This document shows positions 50,986-54,799 of a stretch of DNA of 64,000 nt, piece by piece (the first letter of the stretch is position 1; the number at the start of each line of letters is the position of its first letter). Under the pieces are notes generated by a model. It searched no databases and was not told the origin of the DNA. It was given only the letters and a program-made list of their open reading frames with translations. A program made the translations under genes and the position numbers. This DNA is from Actinomycetes bacterium (GTDB taxonomy: Bacteria > Actinomycetota > Acidimicrobiia > Acidimicrobiales > RAAP-2), in assembly GCA_021823525.1 (NCBI GenBank), contig JAKANY010000002.1:103700-167699 (forward strand), in the 5' to 3' direction.

Positions 50986-51821
50986 GCACGGTGGGGGCCG
51001 TCGTCGTCGACTTCCGCGCCGGCGAGGCCCTGCGGGCCTGCGTCGACTCGCTCGTCGCCAACGGCCTGGAGCGCATCGTCGTGGTCGACAACGACGCATC
51101 TGGGTCGGCGCACGCGGCGGTCGGCGACCGGGCGCGCGTGGTGGAGCCGGGCCGCAACCTCGGCTACGGCGCGGGCGTCAACCGGGGTGTGGCCGCGCTG
51201 GGCCCGGACGCCGACCACGTGCTGGTGCTCAATCCCGACGTCGTGGTCCACGACGGGACGGTCGCGGCGCTCGCGCACCACCTCGACGAGAACCTGAGCG
51301 TAGGCATCGTCGGTCCGGCGATCGAGCGTCCTGACGGGACGACGTACCCGGCCCATCGCGTCTTTCCGAGCCCGCTCCTGGCGGCGGCCCACGCCGTGCT
51401 CGGCTCGCGGTGGCCGCAGAACCCCTTCACCCGCCGCTACCGGTCGCCGCGCCCCGACGGGACCGTCGACTGGGTCTCGGGTGCCTGCTTCCTCGTGCGG
51501 CGCGAGGTCTTCGAGCGGGTGGGAGGCTTCGACGAGCGCTACTTCATGTTCGCCGAGGACATGGACCTGTGCTGGCGCATCCAGAGGTCGGGCTCGCGAG
51601 TCGCGGCCCTGCCGGGCTGCGCGGTGACGCACGTCGAGGGTCTTTCGCGACGGCACGCGAGCCTGGCGATGGTCGTTGCGCACCACCGCAGCGCCCTGCG
51701 CTTCGAGGCGGCCACGGCGCGCGGGTGGCGCCGCGCCACGCTCCCGCTGGCGGCGGCGCTCCTCGGCGTGCGCCTCGCCCTGAGCGTGGCCGGCCAGGTC
51801 GTGACGCGCCGCTCGACGTAG
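50982..51821 (+). CDS. family 2 glycosyltransferase (rhamnosyltransferase-like)
   Basis: IVVVDNDASGSAH, NLGYGAGVNRGV, VLVLNPDVVV, VDWVSGACFLVRREVFERVGGFDERYFMFAEDMDLCWR. Confidence 0.91.
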   Translation: MSTVGAVVVDFRAGEALRACVDSLVANGLERIVVVDNDASGSAHAAVGDRARVVEPGRNLGYGAGVNRGVAALGPDADHVLVLNPDVVVHDGTVAALAHHLDENLSVGIVGPAIERPDGTTYPAHRVFPSPLLAAAHAVLGSRWPQNPFTRRYRSPRPDGTVDWVSGACFLVRREVFERVGGFDERYFMFAEDMDLCWRIQRSGSRVAALPGCAVTHVEGLSRRHASLAMVVAHHRSALRFEAATARGWRRATLPLAAALLGVRLALSVAGQVVTRRST

Positions 51822-51824
51822 ACT
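51819..51824 (+). promoter_or_regulatory. TAGACT -10 box overlapping the glycosyltransferase stop, predicted promoter of the ncRNA
   Basis: 6-nt gap places the TSS at ~51831, the 5' edge of the closing helix. Confidence 0.5.
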
Positions 51825-51829
51825 GGCGC

Positions 51830-52082
51830 GGGGCTGCGGACGGTTCTGTGGTTGCAAGTCGAGGCCAGCCGCGGGCGAAACGACCCACGTAAGGCGTCTC
51901 TGGGACGCTGAGCATGGCGCGGTTTAGAGGTAAGTCCTGCCTCCTCGGTGCCACCGTGGCACCGAGGAGAGCCGACGGAGTGCGTGCGGTCGCTTCCGGA
52001 GAGCTTCGGCTGCCGGGAGCGCATGCGGACGTCGCCGCAGGCCAGTGTGGGGTCAAAGACCAGGTCAGACGGCCGCAGCCCC
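51830..52082 (+). ncRNA. candidate structured noncoding RNA upstream of secA (family not recognised)
   Basis: Closing helix GGGGCTGCGG (51830-51839)/CCGCAGCCCC (52073-52082); 14-bp hairpin 51941-51969; cUUCGg hairpin 51991-52021; GGGCG-AAA-CGACCC 51873-51886; GCGTC-N5-GACGC 51894-51908; GGTC-AAA-GACC 52051-52061. Confidence 0.6.
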
Positions 52083-52120
52083 TCGACGAGGTCCGCACGG
52101 CCGGTAGGGTGAAGCACGAC

Positions 52121-54785
<2,665 letters not shown>

Positions 54786-54799
<14 letters not shown>

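Follow-up and report, generated by a model that had tools for sequence, protein, structure and literature searches.

ModT, the raiA RNA of Clostridioides difficile, is an abundant, trans-acting RNA that influences the passage into stationary phase (PMC11706538). Cryo-EM of the raiA RNA of Clostridium acetobutylicum revealed a fold that is compact and monomeric and contains two pseudoknots (PMC11751092, PMC12286853). The usual neighbours of raiA RNAs are comFC (74%) and raiA/hpf (66%), genes that are common at these loci and do not define the family (PMC11706538). A natural question is whether the RNA works with the RaiA/HPF protein that is often encoded beside it. The cryo-EM entries of the C. 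acetobutylicum RNA are 9CXF and 9ELY.

A raiA RNA was found upstream of secA in the 64-kb window analysed here, the whole stretch of DNA from an uncultured actinobacterium of the order Acidimicrobiales. As an RNA it is ordinary; the useful part is its setting, a genome without hpf.

Identity and structure of the RNA

The element occupies a gap of about 300 bp that extends from the stop codon of a glycosyltransferase gene (51819-51821) to the start of secA at 52121. The features of the locus are as follows.

51819-51824, + strand: TAGACT, -10-like promoter box of the raiA RNA, overlapping the glycosyltransferase stop codon TAG
About 51830-51832, + strand: predicted transcript start of the raiA RNA
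51830-52082, + strand: raiA RNA (ModT) with full closing helix, RF03072 match; outer P1 pairs 51831-51834/52078-52081 covary
51830-51843, + strand: 5' strand of P1, partner 52069-52082; A-G mismatch at 51840/52072, 51843/52069 unpaired
51846-51853, + strand: 5' strand of inner P1, CTGTGGTT, partner 52058-52068; nearly invariant (helix 2, 100% of cells paired)
51864-51876, + strand: P3 hairpin GCC-AGCCGCG-GGC; loop 51867-51873 supplies the 5' strand of pseudoknot pk-1
51918-51924, + strand: 3' strand of pk-1, CGCGGTT, 7 bp with 51867-51873
51942-51970, + strand: variable hairpin arm; hairpin retained in relatives, sequence highly variable
51973-52034, + strand: second variable arm with UUCG-capped hairpin, missing in several relatives
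52046-52068, + strand: most conserved 3' block, TGTGGGGTCAAAGACCAGGTCAG; nearly all columns invariant or near-invariant in 89 sequences
52105-52110, + strand: TAGGGT, extended CCGGTAGGGT, -10-like box of secA, 10 nt before the ATG
52121-54799, + strand: secA, in-frame ORF

A covariance-model search matched positions 51835-52077 (+) to the Rfam family RF03072 (raiA RNA/ModT) with 135.4 bits (E 3.1e-33), far above the gathering cut-off of 101.3 bits. The match spans the complete model (1-209) without truncation and is the sole Rfam match at the gathering threshold in the whole window; the source genome carries a single copy. An earlier note on this DNA had announced a new structured non-coding RNA. 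The gap does hold a discrete structured RNA, but its novelty does not stand: the element upstream of secA is a raiA-motif RNA, a new member of an already known family, and the RF03072 match rules out a new class. The note had also guessed at kinship with 6S/Ms1 RNAs, whose paired ends the element shares. The probability of such a relationship is virtually nil, as the raiA match is full-length, the raiA-specific pseudoknot is conserved and a search of 51700-52200 against Rfam at E <= 0.1 returned no family except raiA.

The base pairs, hairpins and boxes described earlier are present where they had been placed, including the 10-bp closing helix GGGGCTGCGG/CCGCAGCCCC (51830-51839/52073-52082), its inward extension by CTG (51846-51848) with CAG (52066-52068), and the UUCG-capped arm. 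The hairpin CTCCTCGGTGCCAC-C-GTGGCACCGAGGAG (51942-51970) is likewise present in the sequence, but not with the 14 bp assigned to it, since steric constraints forbid a loop of 1 nt; with a loop of 3 nt, 13 bp can form. The fold is more than chance, with a minimum free energy of -141.2 kcal/mol against -121.6 +/- 5.0 kcal/mol for dinucleotide shuffles (z = -3.9), none of 200 shuffles being as stable. This hairpin and the arm capped by UUCG had looked strongest; in the raiA family they are the variable arms. The conserved parts, namely inner P1, P3, the 7-bp pseudoknot, TTAGAnGTAAGTCC and TGTGGGGTCAAAGACCAGGTCAG, had been left out of the earlier description. The P3 hairpin and its loop correspond to the P3 loop/pk-Loop pk-1 seen by cryo-EM (PMC11751092).

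Short raiA RNAs, with a core of about 156-160 nt and no second variable arm, were seen at loci L091, L093, L096, L097, L099, L102, L103, L016, L029 and L031. They belong to several separate families or genera, so that the second arm has apparently been lost more than once.

Conservation among Acidimicrobiales loci

The raiA RNAs of 89 non-redundant Acidimicrobiales loci were aligned, and the Rfam structure together with the P3/pk-1 geometry of the cryo-EM structure (PMC11751092) was mapped on the alignment. Over the 89 sequences 86.1% of cells were paired, compared with 34-46% when the 3' partners were slid, and 32 pairs had compensatory changes against 22.6 in shuffles, with none of 500 shuffles as high. 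Compensatory changes are present in helices 1 and 4, that is, in P1 and in the 7-bp pairing of P3/pk-1. In helix 1 (P1), 96.5% of cells were paired and 13 of the 16 pairs changed on both sides. All cells of helix 3 were paired in the 89 sequences (100%), and in helix 4 (pk-1) the value was 99.4%, its innermost pair having changed on both sides, from AU to GC, in 33 of the 89. Covariation at related loci, proposed earlier as a check on the structure, is thus strong, and the alignment supports a discrete, conserved and covarying RNA.

Coding through the gap was considered and rejected. An open frame runs from 51914 into secA, but a coding reading is opposed by the covarying stems, by variation in arm length and by invariant non-codon columns in the alignment.

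Relation of the RNA to secA

The SecA protein encoded here shares 89% identity with that of an Actinomycetes MAG; tblastn yielded 592 relatives. A TANNNT box, represented here by TAGACT, was found in 88 of 88 non-redundant Acidimicrobiales loci within a window of 14 bases immediately before P1; by shuffling, a TANNNT start is expected within the 6-position peak window in about 4%. A consensus scan found no canonical sigma-70 -35/-10 pair, and the -35 element went unrecognised. The TAGGGT box that had been attributed to secA is present, and secA has a TANNNT counterpart at 74 of 75 loci, -12 to -19 from the start codon (-15 or -16 in 64 of them). This second box usually precedes the ATG by 9-10 nt, whether hpf lies between the RNA and secA or not, which suggests a near-leaderless secA mRNA and would place the raiA RNA outside the main secA message. 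The two separate conserved boxes give good support to the first proposal, an independent RNA and not a secA leader. Spacers upstream of hpf have a Shine-Dalgarno-like site in 37 of 37 cases (36 after removal of the chimeric locus L047, described below), but just 2 of them contain a TANNNT box, where 10.8 would be expected; hpf is thus probably read from the raiA RNA promoter, and secA is not.

The raiA RNA might instead be a cis-acting, riboswitch-like leader that became the 5' untranslated region of secA once hpf was lost. The two lie on the same strand, 44 nt apart, Rfam assigns RF03072 to the type Cis-reg/riboswitch, and a scan for intrinsic terminators found none, including between the RNA and secA, so that the RNA has no defined 3' end and transcription may continue into secA. 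A main role as secA leader is nevertheless disfavoured by the separate secA box, which keeps its distance to the ATG with or without hpf in between. The spacer between the RNA and secA is otherwise unconserved, and the C. difficile ModT acts in trans (PMC11706538). On balance the leader reading is unlikely.

Loss of hpf and retention of the RNA

Neither comFC nor raiA/hpf adjoins the RNA in this genome. The missing raiA neighbour is compatible with membership of the family, since C. difficile too has no raiA neighbour. The S30AE domain (PF02482) and the S30AE C-terminal domain (PF16321) were found neither in the source genome, which is 95% complete, nor in 5 sampled congeners; the S30AE search was positive in 11 of 14 control genomes. 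With hpf absent from the genome, the raiA RNA cannot be a cis-regulator of hpf here.

Most sampled genomes with a raiA RNA do have the HPF/RaiA gene (hpf), and in Acidimicrobiales it often lies just downstream of the RNA. Among 199 genomes sampled from the phylum (requested completeness at least 95%), the RNA was present in 68, of which 62 had hpf. All RNA-bearing genomes outside Acidimicrobiales had HPF (62/62); the 6 that did not were all Acidimicrobiales, 5 of them from the family of the source genome. That GTDB family has the RNA in 49 of 61 genomes, with hpf adjoining it in 16 of the 49, and in none of the 61 did the RNA-adjoining type of hpf occur without the RNA. At the level of loci, with redundancy kept, HPF was missing in 62 of 62 with a short RNA-secA gap and present in 46 of the 52 whose gap was at least 220 nt. 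In a SecA tree, labelled from about 2.5 kb of upstream DNA (so that 'noRNA' means absence at the secA-upstream locus), the hpf-less, RNA-bearing group that contains the source locus is deep and comprises 35 rows; the hpf state changes at least 5 times, a rough number given a quick tree with a weak base.

In the same family, all sampled genomes of genera g120 and g126 have neither the raiA RNA nor hpf, which indicates that loss can also affect the RNA. At sites distant from the raiA locus, genomes G155, G157, G158, G169, G185 and G187 encode proteins about 400-630 aa long with 1-2 PF16321 matches and a weak N-terminal S30AE match or none; these are possibly an HPF-like protein of another kind. 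At loci L004, L009, L026 and L028 about 1 kb without an HPF match separates the raiA RNA from secA, and a different gene apparently sits where hpf would be.

Locus L047 (G192:C130, 1-390), an apparent hpf-bearing exception in an hpf-less genus, was excluded as most likely an assembly chimera, because its DNA from the 3' block of the raiA RNA onwards, including the start of hpf, is identical to that of L058 from another genus. The highly conserved raiA RNA seems to be a point at which MAG assemblies mis-join, and false synteny can result.

The RNA could be imagined as a decaying, functionless relic of hpf loss, in view of the disappearance of its usual companion gene and of the 12 genomes in the source family that are without both RNA and hpf. 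This is highly improbable: conservation reaches at least 97% in 93 columns of the hpf-less loci and in 92 of the hpf-bearing ones, 80 of the 92 being common to both, the promoter box is retained in 44 of 44 hpf-less loci, and the hpf-less group is deep on the SecA tree. As judged from the aligned loci, the raiA RNA shows no decay after hpf loss.

Proposed role and comparison with known RNAs

The reading that we consider highly probable is a free-standing ModT RNA with its own promoter, separate from secA, that was kept after the loss of hpf and acts in trans in a growth transition. The covariance-model match and the covariation show the known raiA architecture, in which P1 closes the ends around the P3 hairpin, the 7-bp pk-1 and the variable arms. 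Transcription would probably start from the conserved TANNNT box at 51819-51824 and yield a free-standing RNA roughly 250 nt long, while secA would be expressed from its separate promoter as a near-leaderless mRNA, the RNA not being primarily its leader or riboswitch. Relatives suggest an ancestral state in which the raiA RNA promoter also fed an hpf gene located between the RNA and secA; the source lineage would then have lost hpf and kept the RNA with its promoter. By analogy with the C. difficile ModT, the RNA most likely acts in trans at the exponential-to-stationary transition, and the phenotype seen in C. difficile (sporulation, c-di-GMP) may not be transferable to an uncultured actinobacterium. 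That the raiA RNA took over, or always shared, a stationary-phase ribosome or translation role and so made HPF dispensable in Acidimicrobiales is very unlikely; if true, it would account for the persistence of the RNA where the protein was lost.

A lineage without hpf that retains the RNA, its promoter and its conserved residues amounts to a natural deletion experiment. It points to a conserved function of the raiA RNA that is independent of HPF, and to an RNA that is more than an hpf leader. The hpf-less context likewise speaks against classing the family as cis-regulatory/riboswitch in Acidimicrobiales. As far as checked, in sources other than the synteny paper of Soares et al. 2024, this context has no earlier report.

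Compared with 6S/Ms1 RNAs, the element is likewise a long RNA with paired ends, but it has no match to the 6S/Ms1 models, and in place of their open-promoter-like bulge it has the pseudoknotted raiA core. With described raiA/ModT RNAs it shares P1, P3, the 7-bp pk-1, the conserved junction sequences and a promoter-like box of its own. It differs from them in its two long GC-rich variable arms and in its surroundings, with a glycosyltransferase gene upstream, secA downstream and a genome that lacks hpf (raiA; no PF02482).
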